Origin: Desulfonatronovibrio magnus
GTDB taxonomy: Bacteria; Desulfobacterota; Desulfovibrionia; Desulfovibrionales; Desulfonatronovibrionaceae
Assembly (NCBI RefSeq): GCF_000934755.1
Contig: NZ_JYNP01000024.1
Location: 1-64,000 of the forward strand
Direction of reading: 5' to 3'
Length of the DNA stretch: 64,000 bases
The position numbers were made by a program, and so were the translations under genes. This document shows, piece after piece, positions 32,454 through 63,896 of this stretch. The notes under the pieces are model-generated. The model was not told the origin of the DNA and did no database searches. It worked only from the letters and a program-made list of their open reading frames with translations. Numbering within the stretch: the first letter of the stretch is position 1; every line of letters starts with the position of its first letter.

Positions 32454-33701
32454 TTAAATATGTCTCAGAGCATCTACCGGATCCATTCTGGCTGCCTTGA
32501 CAGCCGGGTAAATGCCCGAGGCAATGCCTACCCCTATGGACATGAGCATAGCCAGGAGCAGAGACCAGGGGCTTATATATGTCTGCCACTGAATAAAAGA
32601 ACTGACAGACAAGGCAGTTACTGATCCCAGTAAAATGCCAAGTATTCCTCCCATTACTGTCAGCAGGATGGATTCTCCCAGAAATTGGGTGACAATATGT
32701 TTAGTGTTAGCGCCAATAGCTCTCCGGATGCCTATCTCTCTTGTTCTTTCAGATACGTTGGCCAGCATAATATTCATAATTCCTATACCTCCCACAATCA
32801 TAGAAATACCTGCAATGCTGCCGAGAACAATATTAAACAGGCGCTGGGCCTGTCTGGCCTGAGACAAAAGCTCAAGTGGTATAATAATCTCGAAGTTTTC
32901 CAGACCGTCCCGGTTCCACAAAAGTACCCTTCTAATAGCTGAGGTTGTTTGTTCGATATGGCTTACATCTGAAACTTTGAGTAATACTTCCGACAAACTT
33001 TCAGTTACGGCAAAAGACGACATTGATCCTGCGTCACTGCTTAAAGGAGTGATTACAGTATTGTCAAAATCTCTAAGAGTTAGCGGCAGTGCGTCCTGAT
33101 CTATACTGCCCCTTGAACGTAATATACCGATAATACGACAGGGCGTACCATCTAAGTGAATAGTTGAGCCTATTTCCGCCCCATGCCCGATTCGCCTGAC
33201 TAACTCTGCCCCAAGAACGCATACTTCATGACGGTTTTCCACGTCTAAGTCAGAGATAAATCTACCTCTCGCAAGATTGAGTCCTCTTGAATCTATGTAA
33301 GCGGGATTAACTGAAAGGTTTGTTGCTGAGCCTGATCGTCCTAATTCACTGATGACCGTTGAAGATTCTCTGACAGCTGATATGGATTCTAAACCAGGAA
33401 GCTGAGATAATTGAATGATATCATTGTATCCCAGATTGGGAGCCATTGATGGGATATCGCCCTCAAAAATAGATGTTTCGGAATTTCTGATAAGAATTGT
33501 ATTTGTTCCAAGACGTCCAATTTGTTCCAGGGTTTGCCTTTTGGCCCCTTCGGCTATTGCGAGCATAGTGACAACTGCCATCACAGCGAAAACAATGCCC
33601 AGAGTGCTTAAAAGACTGCGCATTCTGTGCAGTGTCAATGCTTGCCAGGCCTGCAGCCATACCTGTTTTCTGGCGAATGAAAAAAAAATTGATTTATCCA
33701 C
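32454..33701 (-). CDS. MacB-like ABC transporter permease
   Basis: The 415-residue inner-membrane protein has the MacB/FtsX layout: an amphipathic start, a first membrane helix (about 34-52), a large periplasmic MacB-type core domain (about 55-285) and three C-terminal helices (about 290-313, 341-369, 378-400). The cytoplasmic ERTREIGIRRAIGA coupling segment is characteristic. Unlike Escherichia MacB it has no fused ATPase; that is the preceding gene, which overlaps it by 8 bp. With the adaptor and TolC genes upstream it forms a tripartite mechanotransmission-type exporter for a peptide, lipoprotein or small molecule; the substrate is unknown. It is the last gene of the 31-kb minus-strand array. 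Confidence 0.92.
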   Translation of the reverse strand: MDKSIFFSFARKQVWLQAWQALTLHRMRSLLSTLGIVFAVMAVVTMLAIAEGAKRQTLEQIGRLGTNTILIRNSETSIFEGDIPSMAPNLGYNDIIQLSQLPGLESISAVRESSTVISELGRSGSATNLSVNPAYIDSRGLNLARGRFISDLDVENRHEVCVLGAELVRRIGHGAEIGSTIHLDGTPCRIIGILRSRGSIDQDALPLTLRDFDNTVITPLSSDAGSMSSFAVTESLSEVLLKVSDVSHIEQTTSAIRRVLLWNRDGLENFEIIIPLELLSQARQAQRLFNIVLGSIAGISMIVGGIGIMNIMLANVSERTREIGIRRAIGANTKHIVTQFLGESILLTVMGGILGILLGSVTALSVSSFIQWQTYISPWSLLLAMLMSIGVGIASGIYPAVKAARMDPVDALRHI

Positions 33702-34395
33702 TTAATGATCCATTTTTTATAAAGCATACTCTGTCAGCTGCTTCCGCAACTTCATCATCATGGGTGACCACAATGAGGGTGGTGCCTTGCCAATGCATTT
33801 CATGAAAGAGGTTGAGAATAGACTTGGTATTCTCATTATCCAGATTTCCCGTAGGCTCGTCTGCCAGGACAACAAGGGGCTTGATAATTAACGCCCTGGC
33901 TATGGCTGCTCTTTGCATTTCCCCACCTGATAACTGGTTGGGGCGGTGAGTTTCGCGTTCAGCCAGTCCGACTTTTTTCAAAGCTGTTCGTGCCAGATCA
34001 TAAATGTTTTCTGGAGGGGCAGGATGATATAAAAAAGGCATGGCCACATTATCAATAAGTGTGCATTGAGATATCAGATTATAGGCCTGAAACACAAAAC
34101 CAATTTTAGATGCCCGCAGTAAAGATAGCTCGATATCATCAAGCTGTAATATGTTTTTACCGTTCAGATGGTAAGATCCACTGTCAGGACGGTCAAGGCA
34201 GCCAAGTATATGCAGCAGGGTGGATTTGCCGGTCCCTGACGGACCCATTATTGCTATAAATTCACCATGAAGAATCTCCATATTAACGTTATATAATGGA
34301 TGGACAGTTTCGTTACCAGAGGTATAGCTTTTACACAGGTTTGCTGTTTTGATTAAGGGCAACGACTCAGGAAGTGAGTTTTTGATTCTATTCAT
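33694..34395 (-). CDS. ABC transporter ATP-binding protein (MacB/LolD type)
   Basis: The product has 233 residues from the ATG at 34395; the frame is open to 34515 but the first 40 residues of that version lie outside the domain. Walker A is GPSGTGKST (51-59), then the signature LSGGE (155-159), Walker B VVLADEP and the switch His of VVTHD. It is closest to the MacB/LolD/FtsE class. It energises the permease encoded immediately downstream (8-bp overlap). The 34396-34633 gap upstream holds no gene. Confidence 0.93.
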   Translation of the reverse strand: MNRIKNSLPESLPLIKTANLCKSYTSGNETVHPLYNVNMEILHGEFIAIMGPSGTGKSTLLHILGCLDRPDSGSYHLNGKNILQLDDIELSLLRASKIGFVFQAYNLISQCTLIDNVAMPFLYHPAPPENIYDLARTALKKVGLAERETHRPNQLSGGEMQRAAIARALIIKPLVVLADEPTGNLDNENTKSILNLFHEMHWQGTTLIVVTHDDEVAEAADRVCFIKNGSLSG

Positions 34396-34633
34396 AGCAG
34401 GATGATTTTGAATGATATGCAGCCTTAGAAATTGAAAGAAATAAGCATTAATTTGCACAATATTGCGAGCGGGGTGCTGAGAGAACTGCCGCGTTGGTTG
34501 CCAGACTTTTGCCAAACCTGAATGTCTGGAAGGATTATTACCGGCTGGTAAATATTCACAGTATTGATACTGTATGAAAATCGAGGTATATTAAAAAAAT
34601 GTTACAAAAAAGCACTTTGCAGTCTCAAAAAGT

Positions 34634-36106
34634 TTAAAAATACCTTGTTCTTAAAACTCTGTCATGAGGAGGTCTGCTCAGAGCAACATGCTCTCCTGGC
34701 TCAAGTCCTTTCTGGATTTCCACAAGCTCTTCGCTTCTTGCTCCGACTGCTATCTCTCTTCGTTCAAATCCTCTCCCTGACTGTACATAAGCAAAGTTCT
34801 GGTCACCTTCCCTGAATAGGGCGAATGAAGGAATTACCAACACGTCAGATTCTTCCTGACAAATAATATTGACTCTGGCTGTCATACCTGGCCTTAACCT
34901 GGGGTCTGACTGATCTAAACTGATGGTCACCCTGAAAAATTTACCTCTTTGACGGCCATCTGCACCTTGATCAGCCAGTACACCGATGGATTCAACACGC
35001 CCCGTCAGGTTAAGCTCAGGATAAGCATCAACCCTTGCCAGAGCTAACTTGCCAACATCAATCTTGTGCAGGTCAGTTTCTCGAACCTGGGTATTTACTA
35101 TCATCCGAGAGATATCGGGCAGATAAACCAGAGGCTGATTCTGCCAGACCTGATCACCCACTCTTGGTTTTCTATTGGTGTTGCCTCTGATCTGCTCAGC
35201 CAGAACAACCATTCCAGGACCTGGTGCTCGAATAACAGTCGCACTCAGTTCCTGCTGGGCTGTATTCAGGCTTTGTCTCGCAGTTTGTAACTCCTGCTCA
35301 GACCTCTCTAAGGCAGCCATGGCCTGTCCAATCTTGTATCCACCTCCAACTTTTGTCTGCTCAAGATTAACTTCAGCTGCAGTTATGGCAGCCCTGGCCT
35401 TTTCAAGTTGGACAGGCAACAGGTGGTCCCTGTAGCTTTCAAGTTGCATGGCAACCATTGTATAGGCCTGTCGTGATTCATCAATCATCTTTTTGATCTG
35501 GGCCTGTTCAGTGGGATTGGCAAACCCTCTCTCGCTGAGCTCCTCTAATGATTCATTAAAACTCAGTTTTTGATCATAGTCGTCTCTGGCCCGGTTTGCT
35601 TCAGCCTCAAGTCTGGCCAGTTCTCTGGGACCTTCACCTTTTTCCAGTCTGCGAAGTTCAAGCCTTGCAATCTGCAAATCACTTTCAGCCCTTGTTATTT
35701 CACGCTCCACCTGGTTTTTCTCCCATTGAAGGAGTTGGTCCTGGGCATCAACCAGAGTATCAAGTTCAATAACCCTTGACCTGAGCTTGATAACTTCTTC
35801 TTCAAAAACAGAAGGATCAAGTCTGACCAGAACATCACTTTCCTCAACATGCTTTCCATCTTCCACAAGATAGATAATTTTGCCCCGATCACCGCGAACC
35901 GAAGAGCTTAGGACTATAGAATTAGCAGCATCAAGTTCTCCTACAGTGCGGACTTCCACCACCATGTCAGTTTTGATGGCAGGGGTAGTAAGTATTTGGC
36001 TGGACGGGGTGGATGAATCAGAAAAGCTTGTATAGATTAGCAGCAGAAAAAGGATGGTTGCGCTGATTGAGATAATTATCTTGTTTTTGACTATGAATTG
36101 TTTCAT
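34634..36106 (-). CDS. HlyD/MacA-family periplasmic adaptor
   Basis: The 490-residue protein has an N-terminal membrane anchor (about 8-27), a first lipoyl half-motif (IVYLVEDGKHVEESDVLVRLDPS), a long alpha-helical hairpin (about 100-300, Glu/Arg/Gln-rich coiled coil), the second lipoyl half (TVIRAPGPGMVVLAEQ) and beta-barrel plus membrane-proximal domains to the end. It bridges the ABC pump to TolC across the periplasm. It lies between the TolC-like gene and the ATPase gene. The length is somewhat above the 370-residue MacA because of the long hairpin. Confidence 0.92.
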   Translation of the reverse strand: MKQFIVKNKIIISISATILFLLLIYTSFSDSSTPSSQILTTPAIKTDMVVEVRTVGELDAANSIVLSSSVRGDRGKIIYLVEDGKHVEESDVLVRLDPSVFEEEVIKLRSRVIELDTLVDAQDQLLQWEKNQVEREITRAESDLQIARLELRRLEKGEGPRELARLEAEANRARDDYDQKLSFNESLEELSERGFANPTEQAQIKKMIDESRQAYTMVAMQLESYRDHLLPVQLEKARAAITAAEVNLEQTKVGGGYKIGQAMAALERSEQELQTARQSLNTAQQELSATVIRAPGPGMVVLAEQIRGNTNRKPRVGDQVWQNQPLVYLPDISRMIVNTQVRETDLHKIDVGKLALARVDAYPELNLTGRVESIGVLADQGADGRQRGKFFRVTISLDQSDPRLRPGMTARVNIICQEESDVLVIPSFALFREGDQNFAYVQSGRGFERREIAVGARSEELVEIQKGLEPGEHVALSRPPHDRVLRTRYF

Positions 36107-36159: not shown

Positions 36160-37548
36160 TTATCTTTGTACTAAGGTACCGATGGCTGCTCTAAGTCTGT
36201 ATTGTCCTACGATATAGTCGATTACAGCTGAGGCAAGCTGTGTTTGGGAGCGCCTCAGTGAGATTTCTGCGTCAATGAGATCAAAGTTGTCTGCCATGCC
36301 GTGTTGAAATTTTATTCTGGAAAGTTCGAGCTGACCTCTGGATTGATGGATCTGCTCTTCCTGATTGTCAATGGCTTTGTCAAGCCTTTCAAGGTTTCGA
36401 AGTTCCCTTTTGACTTGAGCGGTAATGTCATCTCTTGTGAAACTTTGTCTTCTTGCTGCCTGTTGCAAACTTATGAGGCTTTCTTCATATGCAGCTTTTT
36501 GAGAAGTTCTCCGTAAGTCTGTGCTGGATCCCAGGCTGATACCCCATGAAGTGCTGTCGGGCATGGAACCGGGAAATCTGGATGAAGAGTCACCTGCCTG
36601 GCTGAAAGATAAGATCACGTCCAGTTCTGGGAGAGTGTCTTTTCTTGCAACATCACTCAGTCTTCTTGATTCAGCCAGGGCATCTCTGACTTGCTCAATC
36701 TCTATACGATTGTCCATGGCAGTATCAATCATTTCCTGCTCATCAGGATAAATTCTGTCAACTTCCAATGGCAGGGTAACAGATATATCTCTTTCAAGCG
36801 GCAATGCTAAAAAAATTTTTAATGCATCCAGAGCGTCAATATATGACTCCTGGCTTCTAATAAGTTCATCTTCAGCCTGGTTAAGCTGTATTCTAACTCT
36901 GAACAGATCCATGGAGTTGACAAGGCCCATACGCTCTTTGATGGCAGTGGCCTCAGCCAGATCACTTAGCCTTTGATATGATTCTTGCCGTAAGCGGAGA
37001 AGTTCGCGCTGACGAACTACCTCATATCCGTTACGCACAGCTCCAAGTACTGTTTCAATTTCCCTTTGCTGCTGGGCTCTCAAAGCGCTTCTTGTACCAT
37101 AGCGAGCGCTATAGACACCTGACATAGTGTAATCACGTCCTGCCCCTCTTAGCAAGGGCTGAATGATACGCAGGTTAGCTCTGGAACGGTATTCATTGTC
37201 AATTCTTTGCACAGATGGAGTAATGTCTACTCTTGTACCGACCTGAGTCTTTCTTTCCAGACTGATTTCAAGATTCAAATCAGTATCTGTTGATGAATCA
37301 TCTCCTCCTGATACACCTATTCCGGCTCCAGGATAAATTTTAAGTTCAAAGTCAGACTCTGCAGACTCAAGGCGTAAGTTTGATCTGTGAATATCATCCC
37401 GAGCGTCAATCATTCCCCAATTGGCTTCAATGGCCCGGTTGACGATTCTTTCAAGGTCGTAAATGTCCTGGGCATGGGCTGGGAAATTCAAACAAACTAT
37501 TAAGATTAAAGTGCTAGTCTTTATTTTTCTGAAAAAAATACCAATCAT
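36160..37548 (-). CDS. TolC-family outer-membrane efflux protein
   Basis: The 462-residue protein has a signal peptide (cut likely after AHAQ, residue 27), then two internally related outer-membrane efflux repeats: RIVNRAIEANWGMIDARDDI near 33 and the region from about 250 (DTAMDNRIEIEQVRDAL), each followed by long coiled-coil helices. The length and repeat structure fit the TolC/OEP family. It serves as the exit duct for the adaptor and ABC genes 53 bp downstream. In this context it could also export a product linked to the kinase/caspase genes upstream. Confidence 0.9.
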   Translation of the reverse strand: MIGIFFRKIKTSTLILIVCLNFPAHAQDIYDLERIVNRAIEANWGMIDARDDIHRSNLRLESAESDFELKIYPGAGIGVSGGDDSSTDTDLNLEISLERKTQVGTRVDITPSVQRIDNEYRSRANLRIIQPLLRGAGRDYTMSGVYSARYGTRSALRAQQQREIETVLGAVRNGYEVVRQRELLRLRQESYQRLSDLAEATAIKERMGLVNSMDLFRVRIQLNQAEDELIRSQESYIDALDALKIFLALPLERDISVTLPLEVDRIYPDEQEMIDTAMDNRIEIEQVRDALAESRRLSDVARKDTLPELDVILSFSQAGDSSSRFPGSMPDSTSWGISLGSSTDLRRTSQKAAYEESLISLQQAARRQSFTRDDITAQVKRELRNLERLDKAIDNQEEQIHQSRGQLELSRIKFQHGMADNFDLIDAEISLRRSQTQLASAVIDYIVGQYRLRAAIGTLVQR

Positions 37549-37733
37549 TTGTGCTTGCTATCTCTAAGTCAGTTTGATTGTGAAAAAAATAATGGTTTTT
37601 TCATATTATTCTGATTTATAGATAATGATTAATTTTCGAGCCAAGCTTAGCAATTACGATGGGGATCCGGTCCAAAATGTGTGCATTTGCAGCATGGTGA
37701 GCAGTTATGATTATTTTTATTTTATATTTTACC

Positions 37734-37774: not shown

Positions 37775-37800
37775 AGTAAAAATAATTAAATATTTTGAGA

Positions 37801-38862
37801 TTATCCTGGAATAAAGGTATATGTCCAGGTCTTTGTGTATGAAGGACCCCAAGCTGGTACTGAAACCGTTACAGTATCAGTTACTCCGGGATCAGCTCCT
37901 TCAATAACAAAGCTGATTTGACCACTATTGTCAGAAATTTCCGTTCCACTGCCAGACCATCCATCTGTTCCCTGCCAGCTGTAGTCAACTTTAACACCTA
38001 GTGAGTTAACCCTTACATAAACAGTAACATCCTGGCCAGCTACAGGGTTAGAGGGCACATGCCATGAGCTCCAAGTTTGAGGATCAACTGGATCTGGGGA
38101 TGGCGAAGAGCCGCCACCACCAGAGCTGCCTCCAGCTGCGGCTGCGCCTCCTACTGCAGCAGCAGCGCCAACACCAAGGGCTACTGCACCAGCTGTTCCA
38201 ATGCCTGCAGCACTGGCACTAACTGTACCAGCAGTAGTTGCTGCGGCTGCAGACCCACTGGTTGATGAAGTGAGCTGGTAAAGTCCACCTGCTACTACAC
38301 CGAATCTTGCGCCAGATTCAACAGCGTTCATGGCAATATTGTCGGTAAAACCAGGGACATCTGCTGGTACCTGGTCCAGCTCCATACTGACGTGGATTTC
38401 ACTGTCAGCTGGGATGTCCTGCCAGGCAGGAGCCTTATCCTTATCTTCCTGATTGATGACAAATGTTTGTGACTTGACAACCTCATTGTTGGCATTGACT
38501 GCCAGAAACAGGTATTCAATCTGCTCTGTTGATCTGGAAGGAGCAGGAAGAACGCCTGCGAAGTTATTTCTTCTGGTATTGGTCATGGGTACAAAGACAA
38601 AGTCAGCTTCCCCGGCTGATTTAAAGTAGCAGCGAACCAGTTCAATTCCACTGGGGTCAGACACCTGTGCCTCAAGCTGAATCCGGTGTTCAGGTACAAA
38701 GTACTTGGGAGCAGTATGTCTCATGTTGGTCTGCGCTGAAGTTTCAGCGGCCATAAGAGCGGGTGCCAGGGTAGACAATACAAGTGAGAGGCACATGAAG
38801 ATAATCAGCGATTTTTCACCTGCACTGCGAAACTGTTTGATCCAGGGCATAATTCTTGTCAT
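37801..38862 (-). CDS. Exported Gly/Ala-rich protein of unknown function
   Basis: I do not recognise the family. The 353-residue protein has a signal peptide (hydrophobic about 19-37, cut near LMAAE). A beta-sandwich-like region (about 45-145; LEAQVSDPSGIELVRCYFKS) resembles Ig-like or periplasmic sensing domains. A very Ala/Gly-rich hydrophobic stretch (about 205-245) resembles a glycine-zipper membrane segment, followed by a GGSSGGGGSSPSPDP linker and a second beta-rich domain (about 258-353, VPSNPVAGQDVTVYVRVNSLGVKVDYSW) like an Ig or carbohydrate-binding fold. It follows the GNA1162-like gene by 38 bp. A membrane-inserting oligomer is conceivable but unproven. Confidence 0.75.
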   Translation of the reverse strand: MTRIMPWIKQFRSAGEKSLIIFMCLSLVLSTLAPALMAAETSAQTNMRHTAPKYFVPEHRIQLEAQVSDPSGIELVRCYFKSAGEADFVFVPMTNTRRNNFAGVLPAPSRSTEQIEYLFLAVNANNEVVKSQTFVINQEDKDKAPAWQDIPADSEIHVSMELDQVPADVPGFTDNIAMNAVESGARFGVVAGGLYQLTSSTSGSAAAATTAGTVSASAAGIGTAGAVALGVGAAAAVGGAAAAGGSSGGGGSSPSPDPVDPQTWSSWHVPSNPVAGQDVTVYVRVNSLGVKVDYSWQGTDGWSGSGTEISDNSGQISFVIEGADPGVTDTVTVSVPAWGPSYTKTWTYTFIPG

Positions 38863-38900: not shown

Positions 38901-39584
38901 TTAGTCTGTTGCGCTTTGAACCTGAATAGCTCTTTGAAGCAGGTTGTCCTCCTGGATAGTAATTTTTCCAGGGGGCAGAGTTTTGAGCATTTCCTGTACC
39001 AGCCAGGCTATTCTATCAGATCTGGAAGCTGAAGAGTGGGCCATCAGGTTGATGATAGCGTTAAAAGGGTCTATCTGCCATTGTCTGTGAGCAGTACGCC
39101 ATTGTTCACTGCGCCACAGAAGTTGACCTGTCTGGCAATGAGTCAGTCTTAATGAACAGGAAACTACAACTGCATCATATACGCCCTGATGAATCGAAGC
39201 AGACTGATCCACTTGCCCCAGGAGTACCGCCTCAGTATTGAGTTTGCTGCATAGACGCTCAAGACTTATTCCCTGCAGTTGTCCAGGGGTCTGGATGCCC
39301 AGGTCATCCATTACATCTTGTACAGCTTCAACTGAAACTCTGCGGTAACCCTTGGCTTGCAGCCTCTGGTAAACTTCGCTGTACAAAACATCTTCAAGCT
39401 CAGGCTCCAATGAAAAGTTATCCATAGGTAAAACAGCGATCACATTGGGGGAGTACTTTTCATACTGGGGATTTACTTCCCAGAATTCCTGATCCTCTCT
39501 GGATTGTGCATGACCTGATGTTGCCATGGTTAAGCAAACCCAGGAAAAGAGTGTAATCAGCGTACCAGCCTTTTTGAAAAACAT
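38901..39584 (-). CDS. GNA1162/DUF799-like envelope protein
   Basis: The 227-residue protein has a signal peptide ending near GHAQ (about 26). The core VIAVLPMDNFSLEPELEDVLYSEVYQRLQAKGYRRVSVEAVQDVMDDLGI and the following SKLNTEAVLLGQV strand fit the GNA1162 (DUF799) family, a relative of the CsgG/TolB N-terminal fold. In that family the partner is usually a CsgG-like protein, and here one is encoded 26 bp upstream. Unlike classical members it lacks an evident lipobox. It is probably periplasmic; the role is unknown. Confidence 0.75.
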   Translation of the reverse strand: MFFKKAGTLITLFSWVCLTMATSGHAQSREDQEFWEVNPQYEKYSPNVIAVLPMDNFSLEPELEDVLYSEVYQRLQAKGYRRVSVEAVQDVMDDLGIQTPGQLQGISLERLCSKLNTEAVLLGQVDQSASIHQGVYDAVVVSCSLRLTHCQTGQLLWRSEQWRTAHRQWQIDPFNAIINLMAHSSASRSDRIAWLVQEMLKTLPPGKITIQEDNLLQRAIQVQSATD

Positions 39585-39610: not shown

Positions 39611-40384
39611 TTAATTCAATATAACGCCACTGCCATCCTGCCTTATTTCCGGCTGTTTCGGCGCTTCCGGTTGTGACGGAGTTGTCGGCCTGCTGTGTCT
39701 GTTATAAGTTGAGATAAGCTCTACCAGGGCCTGGCCTATGGCCATGTCCAGAGCATCGTCTCCAGCGCTGCTGTCCCATGAACCAACCTGTCCGCCGGCA
39801 GGTCCTCCGGAAAAAGTCTGACGTATGGTATGTTCTCCCTGACCTGTGGAAAGATATTCTCCTGTCTGGGCATTCTGGAGGAGAAGGTCCACCCTGACGG
39901 TTGTATCTACAGTTCTTGCTCGGGATGTAGCACTGACCTGGGAATGGGTATGAACGTTGAATCTTGTAATGGCTCCGGAAATAAAATACTCACAGAGTAG
40001 AATTCTTCTGGCTCTCTGCATGTTTTCAGGACTTCTGATGATATCCACCTGACTTAAAGTATCCCAGTCAAAAAGACGTTTCATCTCTTCCCATTCCACA
40101 ACCCTGAAATAGCCTGCTCTGAGCAGGTGTGAGGCAAGAAACTGGCCGGAGGTGTCCCACAATCGGTCAGCGGAATAGGTGCTTTTGTTTTCAAAACCGG
40201 CAATAGCCACCAGCTCTCTGTCAGCAGGAGGCGGGGGTATTCTGCTCCAGTCAACCCTTTGCTCCTGGTCCTGCAATTGTGGCGGAGGTGATGAATATTG
40301 TCCTGAGTGATGGGCCTGGCATCCAGTGAGAGCCATTGCAAACATTAATAACGCAAACAGTGTTACTTGAAATTTTAATCTCAT
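39611..40384 (-). CDS. CsgG-like outer-membrane lipoprotein
   Basis: The 257-residue protein has a lipoprotein signal (lipobox LTGC, Cys22), a Pro-rich tether, then VAIAGFENKSTYSADRLWDTSGQFLASHLLRAGYFRVVEWEEMKRL, which is the CsgG N-terminal fold, and an LLCEYFISGAITRF strand. CsgG proteins form secretion pores or act as periplasmic accessory lipoproteins; the transmembrane beta-hairpin region is not obvious here, so pore formation is uncertain. It lies 25 bp after the caspase-like gene and 26 bp before the GNA1162-like gene. Confidence 0.8.
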   Translation of the reverse strand: MRLKFQVTLFALLMFAMALTGCQAHHSGQYSSPPPQLQDQEQRVDWSRIPPPPADRELVAIAGFENKSTYSADRLWDTSGQFLASHLLRAGYFRVVEWEEMKRLFDWDTLSQVDIIRSPENMQRARRILLCEYFISGAITRFNVHTHSQVSATSRARTVDTTVRVDLLLQNAQTGEYLSTGQGEHTIRQTFSGGPAGGQVGSWDSSAGDDALDMAIGQALVELISTYNRHSRPTTPSQPEAPKQPEIRQDGSGVILN

Positions 40385-48331: not shown

Positions 48332-48552
48332 ATTGCTGCTTATTGTTGGTTGAACAGGTTTTGATGGGAGCATTACCCGTTTGTAAACAGAACCATTTTG
48401 ATGCTTGGGACAGGCACCCTGGCACTTATTTTTTGTTGAGCAAGAAATAAATATGAAAAATAAATGCCAGGAGAGCCCTTTGCCAAGCATAAAGTTTCAG
48501 GCTTTGATCCGGTTTTGTCATTTACAAACGGGTAATGCTCCCGGTTTTGATT

Positions 48553-55320: not shown

Positions 55321-56397
55321 CTATTTCTTGCCAAGTATTAAAATGTTTTGCTGCTGGCAGATTTCTTTACCATAAGAGTCTTCATCAAAAACATCATACA
55401 AGAAAATTCTTCCGTCTATTGATGCTGCTATCTGAGCATGGTTGAAGATAAATGGATCGGGAAGCTGATAGGCCCACTCAGTGCTTGTTTTTCCCGTAAG
55501 CACTACATAGGCTTCAACGCCAAGGGAAATAAGAAGTTCAGTTCCTAAAAGGGCAACATCTTTGCAATCTCCATAGCCTCTTTCAATTACCAAGTTTGAA
55601 TGGTAAGGAACCATTTGCCTGTCACCACAAGTGGCCGGCCGATATTCTATATTTTCAGCAAGGTAGTTGATAACCAGACTGATTTTTTCATGTATTCCTA
55701 AAGCTGAAACTTCCTTGCCCGATAGCAAAATATCGTAGGCATTCAAGCCTGAGTATTGAGATGAATAGAGATATGTGTAATGTCGGGAAACATCATCCCA
55801 GTTATTTACAGTGCTGATCATCAGCTTGACATCGTATACTTCTGAAGCGTCCCATGCGAAATAATCTCTTGTTACTATCTCTTCAAATTTATAACCTTCA
55901 TGTCTTATTCTATACTTGAAATCCATTTTTTCAGGAAACTGTAATGAATAAGAAATGTGATCTGCCGGATATTGAAGGCTTAAGTCTAAATAGTCTGCAA
56001 AGAATTTCTCAAAATTTGTAAACTTTACACTGGTTTGAAAGTCAACCCCGATGTTAATGGGTGATAACTCTAATTTGTTTTTCAAATTTTGTTCATTGAA
56101 GTTGTGCAGATTGTTTACTAATCTTCCATTATAAGTTAGTTCCAAGTCTGCATTGTTTTCGATTGTTTCTATAAATAGTGATATGTTTCTAAATCCATTG
56201 ACTGTAAGTACTTCAAATAAATATTTATAATTGCCGTATATATTCCATGAATCATCAATATTCACATCTTTAGCATGGTGAACTACTCTATAAGGATCTG
56301 CTGGCTGAACATTTATGCACAAAAAAAAAGATATAATTAGTATTGACCTTCTGGCTTGCTTCGCAGCATGAATTAGTTGTAAGTAAATCATTAGCAT
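55321..56397 (-). CDS. Transglutaminase-like exported protein
   Basis: The 358-residue protein has an N-terminal hydrophobic signal or anchor (about 17-30). The N-terminal half (60-200) is beta-rich and resembles the DUF3857-type domain that often precedes a transglutaminase core. The core (about 235-345) shows the catalytic triad in order: Cys278 in YGDCKD, His320 in FNHAQ, and Asp335 in LYDVFDE. Such proteins cross-link, deamidate or cleave peptide bonds. Placed between tadB and the 1155-residue protein, it might covalently modify or cross-link a pilus or surface protein; this is inference. Confidence 0.85.
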   Translation of the reverse strand: MLMIYLQLIHAAKQARRSILIISFFLCINVQPADPYRVVHHAKDVNIDDSWNIYGNYKYLFEVLTVNGFRNISLFIETIENNADLELTYNGRLVNNLHNFNEQNLKNKLELSPINIGVDFQTSVKFTNFEKFFADYLDLSLQYPADHISYSLQFPEKMDFKYRIRHEGYKFEEIVTRDYFAWDASEVYDVKLMISTVNNWDDVSRHYTYLYSSQYSGLNAYDILLSGKEVSALGIHEKISLVINYLAENIEYRPATCGDRQMVPYHSNLVIERGYGDCKDVALLGTELLISLGVEAYVVLTGKTSTEWAYQLPDPFIFNHAQIAASIDGRIFLYDVFDEDSYGKEICQQQNILILGKK

Positions 56398-56412: not shown

Positions 56413-57636
56413 CTATATCTTTACCTTAACAATTTTCATCATCCACCACACTCCAGTTCCAATCATAAGTGCAACAAGAGTGCTTACCATCCACCCTGGA
56501 ATGGTGGTATACATCAGCCTGAATACTTCGTTATTCATTGTATTTAATAGAAGAGCTATAATCAAAGGCAAGACAGCGAGTATCCATGCCTGAGTAACTC
56601 CTTCAGCTGTCATGGTTTTGATTTTTTGCTGTACTTTTTTTCTTTCCTGCATAGTGCTGGCCAGGCTGTCAAATCTTTCTGGAAGGTTGCCTCCTGATTC
56701 CAGAAGAATCAGTGCTGCATTAACCATAATTCTTGTATCATTACCAGGCATTCTCCTGGCAAGGTTTTTAAGTGAGTCGCCAATAGTTGCTCCAAGTTTG
56801 TGCTCTCTTAAAACCAGCTCGAACTCCTGGCTGACTGGGGGCTTTCCTTCTCTGGCAAGCATTTCAATAGCCTGGACCAGGCTTAAACCTGCCCTTAAGC
56901 CATTGGAAATCATTACCAGGCCATCTGCCAGCTGAGATTCAAATTTTTTTGATCTTCTCCAGCGAAGAAATGCAACTGTTCCTTTTGGAAAGTTAAAAGC
57001 TGCGTAGCCAAGCAGTGCTGCAAGAAACAATCTAATTCCAAGCTGATCGGTTATATTGCTTGAAAGGTTGTAGAGCCTTTCTTCAGAGATGACAAAATTG
57101 TCGGATTCTCTGGCTCTGGCTTCAGCAAAGGATGCATCGTTATGTCTGCCCATCAATGTGTAAAGTTCAGCAATGTTCTGGTGTGCCTTTCCATAGTGGG
57201 GCATAAGCCTGATTGCCTGCATAAGTTTTTTTTCAGCCTGTGCGTAGTTTCTGAGTCCAAGATAAGCAACACCAAGTTCATTATGAACCAGTGGAGAATC
57301 AATCCCTCTCAGTCTCTCAAGCTGCAGCACTGCTTCAGAGTACATCTGATTCTGGTTGTATTCCACAGCCCTTTCAATACTCATTCTGTACTCAATTTCA
57401 GATACCTTCCCAGGCAGAAAAAAACCCAGCAAAGCGCCTGCTATTGTCAAGCCAATTACCGTTCTGTAAATCTGAGTTTTGGAAACATTATAAAACATTT
57501 CAGACAAGGCGCTATGGAGGCGCTCAGTGTACTCATTAGTTTGCTGTTCATCTTTTGGCCTGGTGCGCAGGAGAAAGTATAAAGATCCCCAAAACAACAC
57601 AAAAAGTATTAATGATAAAATTATTGCTGTATTCAT
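56413..57636 (-). CDS. tadB: TadB-like platform protein with inserted TPR module
   Basis: The 407-residue protein has an N-terminal helix (about 3-23) and a second helix (about 57-75), then about 90 residues of TPR repeats (85-175; LGVAYLGLRNYAQAEKKLMQAIRLMP). A further helix (about 200-218) is followed by the type II secretion F domain (240-330; GLSLVQAIEMLAREGKPPVSQEFELVLREHKLG) and C-terminal helices (about 345-362, 378-402). The F domain identifies TadB. Usual TadB proteins are about 290-330 residues, so the TPR block is an addition. The protein starts 28 bp after the TadZ-CpaF stop. Confidence 0.9.
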   Translation of the reverse strand: MNTAIILSLILFVLFWGSLYFLLRTRPKDEQQTNEYTERLHSALSEMFYNVSKTQIYRTVIGLTIAGALLGFFLPGKVSEIEYRMSIERAVEYNQNQMYSEAVLQLERLRGIDSPLVHNELGVAYLGLRNYAQAEKKLMQAIRLMPHYGKAHQNIAELYTLMGRHNDASFAEARARESDNFVISEERLYNLSSNITDQLGIRLFLAALLGYAAFNFPKGTVAFLRWRRSKKFESQLADGLVMISNGLRAGLSLVQAIEMLAREGKPPVSQEFELVLREHKLGATIGDSLKNLARRMPGNDTRIMVNAALILLESGGNLPERFDSLASTMQERKKVQQKIKTMTAEGVTQAWILAVLPLIIALLLNTMNNEVFRLMYTTIPGWMVSTLVALMIGTGVWWMMKIVKVKI

Positions 57637-57664: not shown

Positions 57665-59728
57665 TTAGTTGCTGGCCCAGAAAACTTCTCTTGGGATATG
57701 AAGTCCTCTTTCTTCAAATCTTTCAATACATTTAGGAACATATCCTGTTGCAGAGAATTCTCCAAGTACTCGACCTGCCTCTTCCCCTTTTTGCTTATAC
57801 ATAAAGATATCTCCCAAAGTAATTACATCTCCCTGCATCCCGTCTACCTCTGAAACCTGAATCACTTTTCTGGAACCATCCTTAAATCTGCTGATTTGGA
57901 CGATGATATCTATTGCCCCGACGATCTGTTCTTTGATGGCCTTGATGGGCAGCTCAAAGCCTGCATAAAGTACAAGGGTTTCAAGCCTTGATATAGCCTC
58001 TCGAGATGAGTTGGAGTGTATGGTTGTAAGTGATCCATCATGGCCGGTGTTCATGGCTTGAAGCATGTCAAGAGCTTCAGCTCCACGGCATTCACCCACA
58101 ACTATCCTGTCGGGTCTCATGCGCAGGCTGTTTTTCACCAGATCCCTGATAACTACTTCTCCTTTTCCTTCAATGTTTGGAGGCCGGCTTTCCAGGGTGA
58201 CTACATGAGGTTGGCGCAGACTCAGTTCTGCAGCATCCTCAATGGTAATAATTCTGTCATCTTCCGGGATAAAACTTGAGAGAATGTTCAGCAGTGTTGT
58301 TTTTCCTGATCCTGTACCGCCAGAGATGAGGATATTTAACTTGGCCTGGACTGATGCTTTTAAAAATTCTACCATCTGATTGTTCAGGGTTCCAAAGTTA
58401 AGTAGTTCGGGCATGCCGATGGTATCCTCGGAGAATTTTCTTATGGTCAGACAAGAACCTCTGACTGCAAGGGGAGGAATGATAGCGTTGACTCTTGATC
58501 CATCTTTGAGTCTGGCATCTACCATGGGTGTGCTGGTGTCCACCTTACGTCCCAGAGGAGCAGTTATTCTGGTTATTATATTCAACAGATGCTGCTCTGA
58601 GAAAAACTTCTTGTTGATTCTCTGAAGCCTGCCTTTTTTTTCAACATAAATATCGTTCCAGGCATTAACCATAATTTCTGAAATACTTGAATCGACAAGC
58701 ATATCCTCTAAAGGTCCAAGCCCCATAGCCTCTTGCATAACTTCTTTAACAATGATTGCCCTGGTTGCCCGGTCTTTCACTGGAGAATCGAGGTCAAGGA
58801 TTTCAGAGATCTTTTGTGAAACAGTCATTTTCAGATCTTCAGCTTTCTCGTCATTCTGCCCAACCTCTGTATCGAGTTTTTTAAAATCTATGGATTCAAG
58901 CAGTTTTTCATGAACCGACCTTTTAACAGCATCAAGATCAATTTCCTCTTCTTTCTCAGGTGGAAGTAAGTTGGTATTATCTTTCTTAACAGTTCTTAGG
59001 TGCTGGACGAGCAAGTAAACAAGTTTGTCCAGAGCCTGAGTTAACTGATGTCTTGGCTGGACTTCAGGGTAGGTGCCCTGTAAAAGTATAGAAGCAGCTT
59101 CTGAGTCGAAAGGTATTGTTGCTTCTACATTTCTACCAATGTGAGTAGGCAAAGAGTCAGGATCGAATAAGCTATTTTTTTCATGTTTGTTATAGACTAC
59201 TTTGATCAACTCTCTTGGAAAATTTTTGCTTTGCAGAAGCTTCAGGTCATTCTGAGTTTGTCTTAAAGAAAGATAATCAGGAACCATGGGGATAAGGACG
59301 GCGCTTGAGTGATCAAAAAAACTTTCGATGGCTTCATCGAAGTATGAGCCAGTGTCTATGACAATATATTGATAAACAGTCTTGAGACTTGAAATCACTT
59401 TGGATATGGCTACAGGATCAACTCTCTCATGGAAACAGGAAAATCCGCTGTTGAAGCTTAAAACCTGTATGCCAGATGAGTGACTGGTTGAATACCCTTT
59501 AAGAAGGTTAGGGGTTATTTTGTCTGCCATAGACAGGATTTTGCTTAAGTTTTTTACATTATTCAGATTTAAAAAGAATGAGATGTCCGTGGAAAAAGGT
59601 CTTCCAAAATCAATGAGCAAAACCTTTTCTCTGGTATCCAGGTGCATATTTACTGCGAGGTTGGCAGCAATAAAGCTTTTACCTGTGCCTCCTTTCGAGC
59701 TGAATATGGATATTAGGTGTCCGCTCAT
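57665..59728 (-). CDS. TadZ-CpaF fusion: MinD-like localisation factor joined to secretion ATPase
   Basis: This 687-residue single frame contains two normally separate proteins. Residues 1-240 are a MinD/ParA-like ATPase of the TadZ/CpaE type (deviant Walker A KGGTGKS 12-18, [17 protein letters not shown]). An acidic/Lys linker follows (245-300). Residues 300-687 are CpaF/TadA ([11 protein letters not shown], Walker [10 protein letters not shown] at 470-478, RIVVGECRG, and [12 protein letters not shown]). TadZ marks the cell site and CpaF hydrolyses ATP to drive pilus assembly; the fusion fixes them one to one. It is placed between the secretin and tadB, where tadZ-tadA usually stand as two genes. 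No sign of a stop or frameshift joins the halves. Confidence 0.93.
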
Positions 59729-59768: not shown

Positions 59769-61265
59769 TTACTGAACTTGCTGGCGTAAAGTTTCAAGGT
59801 CCTGTTGCATAAAGTCTCTTTCTACTCTCCTCTGGACTTCTACTGTGTCAACTGGAGTATCTGACAGTATTCTGGGAGTCACAAAGATTACCACTTCCCT
59901 GGTATCAGTTCCAGCTCTTTCAGCTCTATTGGCCTGAGCAAGCGAAGCGCTACCACCTGGCGGGGAACCTGAAAAAGCCTGGAGGTCTCTCTGGCCTATC
60001 AGACCACCCAAAGCAATGCTGTTACCACTTTGAACGCTTAATACAGTATTTAGATTATTTGAGCTTATTATCGGCGCACCACCGGGGCCTTCTCCGGTTA
60101 CATTGCTGGACTCAACTCTTATTGAGCTTATGATGTTGTCATAAGAGTCAATTGTAGGGCTGAAGCTCAAATTGACACCAATTTTTTTGAACTCAACAGA
60201 CATGGTACCTCCCTGCTGAGTGACAGGAATTGGAACTTCTGAACCAGCAAAAAAATCTGCTGAATCTCCACTCTTGGTGATTAAAGTTTGTTGCATAAGG
60301 GAGCGACCCTGGCCTGTTTCGTTTATTCTTCGTGTTTTAGGAAGAAGGTTAGACAATGTCCCCGCAAGAGATCCTGCAAGTCCTGGTGACTGACCACTGG
60401 CACCAGAATAAACTCCTGAAGCACCAAGAGTACCACCTGGATTCCAGTGAATTCCGAAATCACGCAGAGCATTTCTTTCTATTTCCATTATATTGACAGA
60501 CATTTCGATAAGAATTGGTCTAGGGGGAGGGGGGGGAGCCTGCTCTTTCTGTTTTGGGGCAGATGCTGCCACTGGCTGCGGCCTGGGCGTAGGCTTTCTG
60601 ACAGCCAGTGCATTGACAATCTCCGGCGAGAAAGCCTGAGCAATCCTCTGAGCCCGGCCAGATTCGTCATCACTGCTTACGTGTCCGGTAAGCATGAAGG
60701 TGTTTTTGGTGACGGATACCTCAACGTTGCGCATACCCTGCGCTGCAAGGGCCTTTTCAATTTCCTCTTTAACGATATCTTTCATTACAGGGCTGAGTTC
60801 TACTAAGTTTACAACATTGGGCAAACCTTCAATTACCCTTTCAATTCTTTTCAGGCAGTTATGGGTAAAAACCTCACCCTCAACAAACACTCTGCTCCCA
60901 ACAACCCTGACGCTGACTCCTTCAATGTCCTGAATGACCTCCCTGATTTCAGAGGCAGCAGCATCAATTTCCCTGCTGCGTACAGTTATTTGAATTTCTG
61001 CTTGCTGATTTGCTGTTCCCCAGATAAAAAAATTGCTTTGACCTGGTTTTTTAGCGTTTATTAGCAATTCCTGGTCGCTGGTTTTGACACCTCCAAGGAT
61101 ATCAGGGTCTCCTATGGCTATTCTATCAATATTATAACCCGTATTAAATACTCTGCTTTCTCCTGCCACCATTTCAATTCTTTCAGGCAACTGGGCACTG
61201 GCAGAAAGAGCATAAAATACACAAAGCAAAGTGCATATGGATGTTTTTGTGATAAATTGCATCAT
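59769..61265 (-). CDS. cpaC: CpaC/RcpA-type secretin
   Basis: The 498-residue outer-membrane protein has a signal peptide (cut near SASAQ, about 24), the pilus/secretin N-terminal domain (RIEMVAGESRVFNTGYNIDRIAIGDPDILGG), one or two BON domains (about 100-210), a Pro-rich linker with six consecutive prolines, then the secretin domain (245-480; ILIEMSVNIMEIERNALRDFGI, VPIPVTQQGG, EVVIFVTPRIL). It forms the gated outer-membrane ring for the Tad pilus or secreted protein. It lies 35 bp after the cpaB gene. No separate pilotin is evident nearby, although the lipoproteins downstream could serve. Confidence 0.93.
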   Translation of the reverse strand: MMQFITKTSICTLLCVFYALSASAQLPERIEMVAGESRVFNTGYNIDRIAIGDPDILGGVKTSDQELLINAKKPGQSNFFIWGTANQQAEIQITVRSREIDAAASEIREVIQDIEGVSVRVVGSRVFVEGEVFTHNCLKRIERVIEGLPNVVNLVELSPVMKDIVKEEIEKALAAQGMRNVEVSVTKNTFMLTGHVSSDDESGRAQRIAQAFSPEIVNALAVRKPTPRPQPVAASAPKQKEQAPPPPPRPILIEMSVNIMEIERNALRDFGIHWNPGGTLGASGVYSGASGQSPGLAGSLAGTLSNLLPKTRRINETGQGRSLMQQTLITKSGDSADFFAGSEVPIPVTQQGGTMSVEFKKIGVNLSFSPTIDSYDNIISSIRVESSNVTGEGPGGAPIISSNNLNTVLSVQSGNSIALGGLIGQRDLQAFSGSPPGGSASLAQANRAERAGTDTREVVIFVTPRILSDTPVDTVEVQRRVERDFMQQDLETLRQQVQ

Positions 61266-61300: not shown

Positions 61301-62164
61301 TTAAAATCTGGAAAAAAAGTCAGCACCTCTGATTTCCACCCAGGCAGGGCTGGACCTCGGAATTATCGGCCTGTCTATTCCAAGAAAATCCTGAGCTGAC
61401 AGTGGAGGAAGATTTTCTACCTGCCCGGTATCAAAGCTCGAGCGTAAAGATGCTGACAATGTACCAATCTCCTGAGAAAGATTAAGTATCTGAACTTCTC
61501 TGGGGCTTACAGACAGGCTAAGAGTCTTTATCTGGGTGCTTCTACTTCCTGCAGCGGTGTTTCCGGCACTGAAAACGCTCCCAGGAGCCTGTTGGCTTGA
61601 TCCTGATGCAGTTCCGGTTCTGCGCACACTTGATGTCTGGTCTACTGCCAGAACAAGTATGTTTTCCAATGCTGTCTTGGTAATGACTTCTTCGCTTACG
61701 GCCCGTCCGTCTTGGAATGAGCCGATCTCAACTGTCACCATGATGTCCACCATATCACCGGGCTGGATAAGCTGGCCAACAGATGTTACATCTGTGACAA
61801 AAATACTGAATGCTCTTTTCCCTGTAGGAATTTTTGGGGCAATGCCCTCAATTTCTACATCAAAAAACATCGACTCCAAGACCTGAGTTCCTCTTAAGAC
61901 AGGGACATTGACGCTTCTGTTGACCACTCTTTGAATATCATTAAATGCTCCTGGCTGGACATATTTTTGCGGTACTGTCACCAACTCAATCATTCCGGGC
62001 TCTACCCTGGTTCCTTCAGGCATATCTCTCAAAGCAGCAACAACCTGAACTGGGGTAGCCAACTCAAGAATAGCTCTTTCTCTGCTGCTTATATAGTTCA
62101 TGAGCATTATTACAGCAAAAACAGCAACTAAAAGAGAAATGAGTAAAGCTTTTGTGTTTGACAT
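61301..62164 (-). CDS. cpaB: CpaB/RcpC-type pilus assembly protein
   Basis: The 287-residue protein has an N-terminal membrane anchor or signal (about 5-25). The SAF domain (about 40-100; VVAALRDMPEGTRVEPGMIELVTVPQKYV) and the following RcpC/CpaB domain (PTGKRAFSIFVTDVTSVGQLIQPGDMVDIMVTV) are diagnostic. SAF domains in CpaB are thought to bind peptidoglycan-like glycans or hold the secretin in the periplasm. It occupies the standard position immediately before the secretin gene. The C-terminal part is Ser/Gly-rich and low complexity in the middle (about 195-220). Confidence 0.92.
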   Translation of the reverse strand: MSNTKALLISLLVAVFAVIMLMNYISSRERAILELATPVQVVAALRDMPEGTRVEPGMIELVTVPQKYVQPGAFNDIQRVVNRSVNVPVLRGTQVLESMFFDVEIEGIAPKIPTGKRAFSIFVTDVTSVGQLIQPGDMVDIMVTVEIGSFQDGRAVSEEVITKTALENILVLAVDQTSSVRRTGTASGSSQQAPGSVFSAGNTAAGSRSTQIKTLSLSVSPREVQILNLSQEIGTLSASLRSSFDTGQVENLPPLSAQDFLGIDRPIIPRSSPAWVEIRGADFFSRF

Positions 62165-62173
62165 TATTACACC

Positions 62174-62590
62174 TTAATCCTGTATTTCAATCTGTCTGAC
62201 AAATCTTCCCCGGGTCCGATAAAAATTTATCCCTTCACCATGATAAGATCCTTCATAGTAGTCTATTCTCTGGGTTTGGGATATCGTTGGCGTCTTAAAT
62301 ACATCCTTCATTCTTCCAGGAACCTGTACATGTACATGTTCTTCCTTAAAAGCATGAGAGAACGGGCTTGCTGCATTTTGAGCCATTGATACTCTCATTT
62401 GGTAACGAATTTCACTCAGTGCCTTATTGTTTTTAGATGTAAATTCAGCTATAATCATCATAGAAAGAAGAATAAATGCAAGAAAACCCATGATTAGAGC
62501 TAACTCCATTACCGCTTGCCCTCTTTGGGAGCCTGACTGATCTGATTTATTTGTAGATAATCTGATCTTCGTGGATAATATGCGGTTCAT
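62174..62590 (-). CDS. TadE-like pseudopilin (second copy)
   Basis: The 138-residue prepilin has a basic leader ending in RG before Q-A-V-M-E-L-A-L, with Glu at +5, then a hydrophobic helix (about 27-48; LIMGFLAFILLSMMIIAEFT). The globular part is small and His/Arg-rich. It resembles TadE-type pseudopilins but is diverged. Its leader would need the prepilin peptidase of the Tad system (TadV/CpaA), which is absent from the window. It is 6 bp after the TadG-like gene and 9 bp before cpaB. Confidence 0.8.
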   Translation of the reverse strand: MNRILSTKIRLSTNKSDQSGSQRGQAVMELALIMGFLAFILLSMMIIAEFTSKNNKALSEIRYQMRVSMAQNAASPFSHAFKEEHVHVQVPGRMKDVFKTPTISQTQRIDYYEGSYHGEGINFYRTRGRFVRQIEIQD

Positions 62591-62596
62591 GGTTGC

Positions 62597-63451
62597 CTAC
62601 CTGATCAACAATGCCTGGTAATAGGGTTTTCCATCGTAAATATGTCCACCGGCAGGCCTGGCCATAGCTCTGGCTGTGAGAGTCGGCATGGCTCCAAAGA
62701 TTCTTTCAGCGATAAGAAAGTTCTGGGCTGGAAGTTCAAGTTCATACAACACATATGTTGGCCCAACTTTTCGGACCCGTTCACGGATTACAGTTGTTGT
62801 AGAAAAACTAACTGACCTTTTGGCTAGCAAATAAAAACTGCCATCATGGTTTCCGGCAAACCTTGGGTCTCCAGGATCAGACCAGAACAGATTTGCAACA
62901 GGAGAGCCAAGGGAATAGCTTGCTGTATAAAAACTGAATGAAACTGGTCGCTGCACTGCCGACAGGTGTGTAAGAACTTGTGTATTGTGTGCTGCTGACA
63001 ATGTGCTTAATGGCATGTTCATTTCTTTTACATTTTGCGCTACATGCTCGGCCATGGCTGCATATAATTCGTTGAAAAGATTTTGATAAGCAAATATATT
63101 GTCAATTACCCCAGTTTTTCCATTAAAGAAGTAACTTAGGGCAATTGCGGCTTGGCCAAAATCGTACCATGTTCCACTGCGCATGATTTTTACAAGATTT
63201 TCATGCTCTTTTGCCATTTCAATATTCAGATCAGCAATTTCATTCAGCCCAGTAGCTTGAACTGCAGCAGCAGAAAGGGCGCAGGCATCTACAGTATTCT
63301 GAAGCTTTATTTTAGTAAAAACAAGCTGGTTTATATTGATGATCAGCACAATCATCAGTACCATTGTCGGCAGCAAAAAAGCCACAGAAACAGTAATTGA
63401 TCCTTGCTCTTTTGATTTAGAGTGTCTTTTATGATTACTGATAGAGTGCAT
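62597..63451 (-). CDS. TadG-like pilus assembly protein
   Basis: The 284-residue protein has an N-terminal TadG/TadE-like hydrophobic helix (EQGSITVSVAFLLPTMVLMIVLIININQLVF), directly followed by TVDACALSAAAVQATGLNEIADLN, the hallmark of the TadG N-terminal (Flp pilus assembly) domain. There is no von Willebrand A domain, so it is shorter than full TadG. The globular part contains Tyr/Phe-rich strands. The gene overlaps neither neighbour and lies between the two TadE-like genes. Confidence 0.85.
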   Translation of the reverse strand: MHSISNHKRHSKSKEQGSITVSVAFLLPTMVLMIVLIININQLVFTKIKLQNTVDACALSAAAVQATGLNEIADLNIEMAKEHENLVKIMRSGTWYDFGQAAIALSYFFNGKTGVIDNIFAYQNLFNELYAAMAEHVAQNVKEMNMPLSTLSAAHNTQVLTHLSAVQRPVSFSFYTASYSLGSPVANLFWSDPGDPRFAGNHDGSFYLLAKRSVSFSTTTVIRERVRKVGPTYVLYELELPAQNFLIAERIFGAMPTLTARAMARPAGGHIYDGKPYYQALLIR

Positions 63452-63479
63452 AGTGGATTCTCTGTTTTATATGATGCGC

Positions 63480-63896
63480 CTAAAAATCATTATCGTCCTG
63501 CTCAAGACGGTTTTTATAATCAAGTTCATTAAACGTAGGGATTTCAATTTCAATGCTGAAACCTCTTCCTTGCGTTAGGAAATTGTTTATTCCAGAAGGC
63601 ATAGGTATCTGTCTTGCAACAGCTACCCTGTTTGTTTCAAAAGTCATTATAGAGTCGGAATCAATTTTTTCTGAAGTTTCTACTGCAGGTCCTATCCCTT
63701 GTACAGAAAATACTCTGGAAGCTGCAAACCCTGCAAATGTTGCCCGTTCATTTGCAGCAAAGAAAATAAAAAATTGTATAAATATTGCAAAAAAAAGCAG
63801 GAGGCCCATGAGAGCCAGAGCGAACTCTACTGCTGCGATGCCTTTTTCAGATGTCATCTTTTTGGTACTTTTTATATTTTGTTTGCAGTTAGTCAT
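63480..63896 (-). CDS. TadE-like pseudopilin
   Basis: The 138-residue protein has a basic leader ending in EKG before I-A-A-V-E-F-A-L-A-L, with Glu at +5, and a hydrophobic helix rich in Phe (about 25-50). This is the classical TadE N-terminus. The C-terminal part ends with an acidic EQDDNDF. It is the first gene of the array visible in the window; upstream genes (Flp pilin, TadV, regulators) may lie beyond 64000. The remaining 104 bp to the window edge contain no gene on this strand. Confidence 0.87.
   Translation of the reverse strand: MTNCKQNIKSTKKMTSEKGIAAVEFALALMGLLLFFAIFIQFFIFFAANERATFAGFAASRVFSVQGIGPAVETSEKIDSDSIMTFETNRVAVARQIPMPSGINNFLTQGRGFSIEIEIPTFNELDYKNRLEQDDNDF

Follow-up and report, generated by a model that had tools for sequence, protein, structure and literature searches.

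The bacterium Desulfonatronovibrio magnus carries, on contig NZ_JYNP01000024.1, an array of genes on one strand in which a Tad-like apparatus, phospho-signalling proteins, a caspase-fold protein and an exporter lie one behind the other. The window analysed here comprises bases 1–64000 of this 94,829-bp contig, from a genome of 4.8 Mb. Its list of open reading frames (ORFs) gives 24 consecutive minus-strand genes from 63896 down to 32454 (Table 1), the number that a preliminary description of the window had put at about 24, and every listed plus-strand ORF of at least 90 amino acids (aa) within these limits overlaps an array gene. The array is more than a chance assembly, because its gene order recurs in other species. 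The modules named in the preliminary description are backed by Pfam, with TadE only below cut-off. As for its bounds, the 24 genes do lie in the window; the true start is outside it, at a Flp-like ORF and a PP2C phosphatase gene that share the array's strand; 403 bp separate the TadE-like gene from the Flp-like ORF and 235 bp the Flp-like ORF from PP2C, and a divergent LuxR-type regulator lies beyond this head of the block. Interruptions were said to occur at three places only. Those three are there, at 44344–44533 (190 bp), 37549–37800 (252 bp) and 34396–34633 (238 bp, taking 34395 as the start of the MacB ATPase), and the gap between tadC and FHA1 is a fourth. Neither a tRNA nor an Rfam match at gathering score was found. 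A promoter scan gave 55 sites against a shuffled mean of 33 and a terminator scan 26 against 19, which makes them unusable as proof of transcript ends.

Table 1. Genes and features of the array, in the order of the minus strand (window positions unless the contig is named).
Feature	Position	Strand	Evidence
PP2C phosphatase	contig 64874-65629	-	outside the window
Flp-like ORF, 112 aa, one hydrophobic segment	contig 64300-64638	-	no Pfam match
TadE-like pseudopilin	63480..63896	-	Pfam TadE below cut-off, E 0.007; relatives at same position in G056/G046
TadG-like (Tad domain) protein	62597..63451	-	PF13400 E 1.5e-10
138-aa pseudopilin-like protein	62174..62590	-	no Pfam family over cut-off; kept in position in L036, L038-L040, 42-51%
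CpaB/RcpC	61301..62164	-	PF16976 E 5.5e-22; TIGR03177 over cut-off
CpaC/RcpA-type secretin, N-terminal pil_N and BON	59769..61265	-	PF00263, PF13629, PF04972
TadZ-TadA fusion (ParA/MinD-like N-terminus and T2SSE ATPase)	57665..59728	-	PF13614 and PF00437; P-loop motifs in both halves
TadB platform protein with TPR	56413..57636	-	PF00482 and TPR
Transglutaminase-like protein, variable slot	55321..56397	-	PF04473; partial 27% relative, same position in G489
1155-aa protein, hydrophobic N-terminus, no family, variable slot	51789..55256	-	21% relative (1214 aa) in G489
Thioredoxin-fold lipoprotein-like protein (trx) without CxxC	51230..51754	-	PF00085; 8-sequence alignment
Second secretion ATPase, PilB/GspE class (MshEN and T2SSE)	49484..51193	-	Pfam; own clade 100/99
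TadC platform protein	48553..49431	-	PF00482; tree
Repeat between tadC and FHA1, like a miniature inverted-repeat transposable element (MITE)	48366..48542	.	22-bp perfect terminal inverted repeats; other genome copies
FHA1: FHA, predicted transmembrane segment, extracytoplasmic Cache/PAS-like domain, second predicted transmembrane segment, C-terminal cytoplasmic domain	46892..48331	-	start corrected from 48490
FHA2: FHA, one predicted transmembrane segment, then TPR	46017..46892	-	Pfam; transmembrane prediction
FHA3: FHA, linker with 3 [DE]xT-hydrophobic motifs, one predicted transmembrane segment, then TPR	44534..46036	-	Pfam; motif count
Transmembrane Hanks-type kinase, linker repeats, C-terminal DUF4384	42571..44343	-	PF00069 E 3.4e-56, PF14326 E 4.4e-22; 4 linker motifs
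Exported caspase-fold protein, AGHG/DTCHAG dyad, immunoglobulin-like repeats	40410..42527	-	PF00656, PF09136
CsgG-like protein, lipobox-like signal peptide	39611..40384	-	PF03783
GNA1162-like protein	38901..39584	-	PF05643
353-aa exported protein, Ala/Gly-rich segment, no family	37801..38862	-	1 or 2 copies at same position in relatives
TolC-family outer membrane protein	36160..37548	-	PF02321
HlyD/MacA-type adaptor	34634..36106	-	Pfam; under MacA model cut-off
MacB-type ATPase	33694..34395	-	PF00005; ORF open to 34515, likely ATG start 34395
MacB-type permease	32454..33701	-	PF12704 and PF02687

The Tad, or type IVc (T4c), set is present, with TadA ATPase, TadB, TadC, CpaB, secretin, TadZ and TadE/G-type proteins, among which TadE and the 138-aa protein stay below cut-off. 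The Flp-like ORF is the candidate for the Flp major pilin, in connection with which we take GxxxxEY to be a motif. No prepilin peptidase TadV was found by Pfam among the 24 array genes, to which this search was confined. Elsewhere in the window, a ComP-like type IV minor pilin with an N-methylation motif is encoded at 1608–2033. The locus shares with Tad/Flp pili the set from TadA ATPase to TadE/G-type proteins, with the Flp-like ORF as a candidate pilin gene, and it differs from them in the fusion of TadZ to TadA (full-length in L036 and L038–L040, at 68–71%; L denotes loci and G genomes), in the TPR of TadB, in having its own kinase, PP2C and three FHA proteins, and in the addition of a PilB/GspE-class ATPase beside TadC. 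There are thus two T2SSE ATPases in the array, and the usual single motor, best known from Caulobacter, is not what is found here. There CpaF alone drives both extension and retraction of the pilus, an arrangement whose reach across the family is called unknown in that work (PMC11300603).

The second ATPase scores below both equivalog cut-offs (PilB, 564 bits against 676; GspE, 512 against 630), and in the tree it groups with sequences from Desulfobacterales, Desulfovibrionaceae, G489 and one Acidobacteria locus. Five of the genome's other T2SSE proteins fall outside this group, in a tree that does not include two more encoded on C115. The second ATPase is of the PilB/GspE class and has a clade of its own; the end residue of Walker A varies between S and T. 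Its distribution was followed in 38 loci obtained by scanning a collection of 84,980 species with a TadC profile, built from four FHA-associated TadC proteins, so that the sample leans to FHA. Nine of these loci carry the PilB-like ATPase, and the thioredoxin-fold lipoprotein-like protein occurs in eight of the nine and in none of the others. In the FHA-rich Tad loci L142–L144 (Desulfobacterales) and L034 (G055), a pair of TadA-type ATPases is present instead, one of which comes after the FHA genes. Between tadB and trx lies a slot of changing content: a transglutaminase and a protein of about 1200 aa (window and G489), a 418–433-aa protein (L036, L038 and L039), a 306-aa low-complexity protein (L042), or nothing (L040). 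This slot might be a place for cargo or tip proteins.

The signalling genes follow tadC, and their tight packing had been noted as a sign of phosphorylation-controlled pilus or secretion activity. Matches of relatives to the FHA1 ORF begin near codon 54 (48331), not at the ORF start at 48490, and they are preceded by a MITE-like element of 177 bp with an inner 71-bp unit. The start at 48490 is therefore probably spurious. The 42 genome matches listed for the element are itself, a near-complete copy at 93% identity, one at 71% identity, four ends-only matches (the inverted ends of the element itself and of the 93% copy) and 35 partial ones. With the start corrected, the tadC–FHA1 gap is 221 bp here versus 1–67 bp in six relatives (measured from the tadC stop codon to where the match begins), and the FHA3–kinase gap is 190 bp versus 14–29 bp in five relatives. 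Tight packing at both seams is thus probably ancestral and looser in this genome.

Judged by eye from the translations, HRD/DFG in the kinase, the metal-binding motifs of PP2C and GR/SxxH/N in the FHA proteins look intact. The FHA1 model (pLDDT 77, pTM 0.35) contains an FHA fold at about 1–97 and a Cache/PAS fold at about 142–267, the latter aligning with WalK (4ywz_B; Z 16.3, root-mean-square deviation (rmsd) 2.1, 126 residues aligned), CitA (1p0z_A; Z 14.9, rmsd 2.8, 120 aligned) and DcuS (3by8; Z 14.5, rmsd 2.6, 118 aligned), which predicts a sensor domain of Cache/PAS type in FHA1. A search of the C-terminal half of the kinase, excluding the kinase domain, gave no match among PDB sequences. 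The motif [DE]xT[ILV][ILVF] occurs four times in a 66-aa linker of the kinase and three times in a 50-aa linker of FHA3, versus seven occurrences across 48 other proteins of the region totalling 21,043 aa. All seven kinases of the supercluster lineage (window, L036, L038, L039, L084, L116 and L113, the last being G775, whose Tad genes are on another contig) have 2–5 copies in the linker, where shuffling gives a mean of 0.02–0.06. In FHA3, 2–3 copies are found in five of six members of the lineage, G489 having none. FHA2 of G056, G046, G055 and L042 holds one copy of this motif each. For the shuffle test, the FHA2 linker was too short or lacked an anchor. A PP2C gene adjoins the block in the window genome, in the Desulfovibrionaceae loci and in G475. 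Intact-looking motifs of kinase, PP2C and FHA and repeats resembling phosphothreonine ligands are together consistent with phosphorylation control. In the Gammaproteobacterial Tad loci L057, L058, L066, L067 and L069–L073, FHA and PP2C genes lie downstream of tadC, and L057, L066, L067 and L069–L072 also have a kinase gene some 10 kb off, encoded on the other strand.

Behind the kinase, the caspase-fold protein has the His-Cys dyad of C14 caspases; AGHG and DTCH[AS]G are present in all 10 sequences compared, the window's among them. The model of the CsgG-like protein was compared with CsgG (E 2.5e-8, TM-score 0.42, rmsd 10.1); its confidence is modest, and given this score pore formation is not claimed. 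Judged by Pfam the MacAB-TolC set is complete, sharing the adaptor, the MacB-type ATPase and permease and TolC with known pumps, and it differs from them in that MacB is split over two genes, the adaptor scores under the MacA cut-off and the genes are tied to those of the caspase and CsgG. Where sequence reaches, the exporter accompanies the caspase block in seven of eight relatives with a full-length caspase, so by gene association it is part of the caspase module rather than of Tad. In three genomes (G702, G632 and G708) the caspase module is unlinked to Tad; Lcl_C surface proteins accompany it in all three, a PP2C of its own and a fusion of FHA with lytic transglycosylase in G702 and G632, and a kinase in G632 and G708, with none on the G702 contig. 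The fusions, of an FHA domain to an SLT lytic transglycosylase, lie at L114:12062-13513 and L115:9889-11376.

Gene order was compared across the TadC loci, of which 27 of 38 hold FHA relatives (tblastn E<=1e-4) up to 10 kb from tadC, the other 11 including some short contigs. In L036, L038 and L039, all Desulfobacterales, the order from the gene of the 138-aa protein through cpaB, cpaC, tadZA, tadB, the variable slot, trx, the PilB-like gene, tadC, FHA1, FHA2, FHA3 and kinase to caspase is kept; csgG, gna1162 and the gene of the 353-aa protein come next in the two of them not ended by a contig edge, and L037 and L040 are cut earlier by contig ends. Exporter genes follow in the four relatives G101–G104 (genomes of L036, L038, L039 and L040), in three at 31–48% identity and in window order as far as contigs reach, and in the fourth at 50–60% and reordered. 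G489 keeps tadZA through csgG and shows neither gna1162 nor an exporter in the following 16 kb, bar an ABC ATPase matched at 25% on the opposite strand. In Desulfovibrionaceae (G046/L041, G056, L042 and L043) Tad genes, trx, the PilB-like gene, tadC and FHA genes are followed by PP2C, with no caspase in these loci or, at E<=1e-10, anywhere in the genomes of G046 and G056. To judge from these loci, the block of about 30 kb is a rare one, its gene order being shared by a few bacteria of the sulfate-reducer type.

Co-occurrence was counted in 389 genomes from Desulfobacterales, the order to which G103 belongs. The caspase is matched at E<=1e-60 in 15 of them, nine being counted as full-length orthologues (G101–G104, G775, G489, G702, G632 and G708, the gene of G101 being split over two contigs); the main count excludes the other six matches, which are domain-level or differ in architecture. 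Seven genomes match the TadC profile at E<=1e-97; after a gap, 38 more follow from 5e-62 down to the 1e-40 limit. Six of the seven genomes with this TadC lineage have the caspase orthologue (Fisher p 1.3e-10; 7e-9 with all 15 caspase genomes), p values that are generous because genomes share ancestry. G775, counted among the six, has TadC and caspase on separate contigs. The seventh is G475, represented by a 6.5-kb contig of PilB, tadC, FHA1-2-3 and PP2C, whose TadC match holds one in-frame TAG. Among the caspase genomes without this TadC lineage, G632 and G708 have no match to the TadC profile, and in G702 a different contig carries a more distant Tad/FHA locus (TadC E 3e-59), which ends with a relative of the 353-aa protein. 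Across the phylum, 345 genomes showed no full-length caspase orthologue beyond that of the window's genome, and 47 others match the caspase domain.

Taken together, these data incline us, by somewhat better than an even chance, to read the locus as a Tad-type filament or secretion apparatus with two motors, turned on and off by a co-encoded threonine-phosphorylation circuit, to which a second signalling and export module has been joined in one lineage. This reading builds on gene content, conserved order, motifs and predicted folds, from which we infer phosphorylation, docking, gating and substrate. Outside signals would enter through the Cache-like domain of FHA1 and the C-terminal DUF4384 of the kinase, the latter being predicted, like CsgG, GNA1162 and the caspase, to lie in the periplasm. 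The kinase would phosphorylate its own D-x-T repeats and those of FHA3, and FHA1–3 would dock on the phosphothreonine sites, their transmembrane and TPR parts licensing assembly or firing of the Tad core, with PP2C resetting the switch. The caspase may trim an exported substrate, the 353-aa protein or the variable-slot proteins being guessed candidates, and the product could leave through MacAB-TolC and/or CsgG.

Several points weigh against this reading, and part of them would suit two independent neighbours, a phospho-regulated Tad pilus and a kinase–caspase–CsgG–MacAB/TolC module for envelope stress or export, which we regard as rather unlikely. Tad/FHA/PP2C stands without the caspase in five loci, those of G046, G056, L042, L043 and G475 (genome-wide absence being checked for G046, G056 and G475), and the caspase–CsgG–GNA1162–exporter set is unlinked to Tad in the three genomes named above, so the two need not belong to a single pathway. 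Next to their Tad loci, G056 and G055 have different kinases, which lack the repeats (0 of 2); at about 32% identity over the kinase domain and in other positions, these were rejected as orthologues. FHA3 of G489, G056, G046 and L042 also lacks the motif, which was itself defined on the window after inspection, and because of these absences the proposed docking site is not general. In the window, moreover, the MITE-like element parts tadC from FHA1 and a gap of 190 bp precedes the kinase. Phosphorylation, co-transcription and function are putative, and the caspase substrate and exporter cargo are guesses. Independence of the two neighbours is, on the other hand, at odds with the co-occurrence in six of seven genomes and the fixed order across species, with the placing of the kinase 14–29 bp behind FHA3 in five relatives, and with the lack of linker repeats in both Tad-less relatives of this kinase. 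Whether the Tad, FHA/kinase and caspase/CsgG blocks stay together, the question raised by the preliminary description, is thus answered in part: order and co-occurrence are kept, and each module is also seen alone. Since each block also occurs without the other, the array is, judged by its distribution, two joined modules rather than one indivisible machine.

For the Tad apparatus under a phosphorylation switch, the nearest working model is the threonine phosphorylation pathway (TPP) of the type VI secretion system (T6SS), in which TagQRST, including the ABC-like pair TagTS, activates PpkA, Fha1 is phosphorylated and PppA resets the system (PMC10482370). The shared elements in one locus are a transmembrane threonine kinase, PP2C, FHA, periplasmic or outer-membrane partners and an ABC-type pair, whereas the machine here is Tad, with three FHA-transmembrane proteins instead of one Fha and a full MacAB-TolC with adaptor (PMC10482370). 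By this analogy, a Tad core seems to be under a circuit of the same logic. No T6SS family was among the Pfam results for the 24 genes.

Kil systems are Tad-like, have many FHA proteins and are found in Deltaproteobacteria (PMC8460266), and in Myxococcus contact signalling is suspected (PMC8460266, PMC12075869). A Kil-type apparatus for contact-dependent killing would accordingly share with this locus the Tad-like core and several FHA proteins, and in the Bdellovibrio-labelled L049:10001-17181 three FHA proteins and a weak match to a SpoIIE-like phosphatase come after TadC, in the same order. We nevertheless hold this quite improbable: by published description, the single ATPase of Kil bears FHA at its N-terminus, the Kil secretin is short and lacks N0, and there is no TadG (PMC8460266), whereas here the ATPase N-terminus is ParA/TadZ-like, the secretin keeps its N-terminal domain (PF13629, residues 28–95), and there are two ATPases and a TadG-like gene. 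FHA-bearing (class III) CpaF likewise links FHA to a Tad motor and differs in that the FHAs here are separate membrane proteins (PMC12019362). That kinase and caspase mark an anti-phage defence island is hardly credible. PADLOC profiles do match both, but they cover generic kinase and caspase domains, and of eight other proteins scanned PP2C and TadZA have one match each and six none. To our knowledge, moreover, known defence operons are unlike a pilus core with export signals.

The tree places the window's TadC with five Desulfobacterales loci (99/93), not with Desulfovibrionaceae, the family that belongs to the same order as the window's genome, and no TadZA match better than E 1e-15 was found in 17 genomes of the same genus or family, several of them incomplete. 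A binning error was considered and rejected, valS on the contig being native, with 79% identity over its full length to two same-genus genomes. An empty site was sought in one same-genus stretch (G001 around valS), in which valS and the next gene matched and no site was shown. On this evidence, the array was likely acquired horizontally.

What appears new here is a kinase/PP2C/FHA circuit joined to a dual-motor Tad, which is neither Kil nor T6SS; among the titles and abstract starts listed from the open-licence literature, in one case 10 of 488 papers, no Tad locus was described with this kinase/caspase set. In the bolder form, which we consider unlikely, the locus would encode a distinct contact or secretion machine derived from type IV filaments, with a dual-motor Tad, a complete TPP-like circuit with an FHA-coupled Cache sensor, cargo activated by a dedicated periplasmic caspase and its own MacAB-TolC/CsgG release. 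In the reading that we prefer, the array would be a genome-encoded case of a pilus machine with a phosphothreonine switch of its own, as the T6SS has, and of a Tad system that has two motors where the best-studied one manages with a single motor. The locus opens to experiment the possible gating of Tad assembly by phosphorylation, the role of FHA proteins around Kil-like systems and the part that a bacterial caspase may play in the periplasm.

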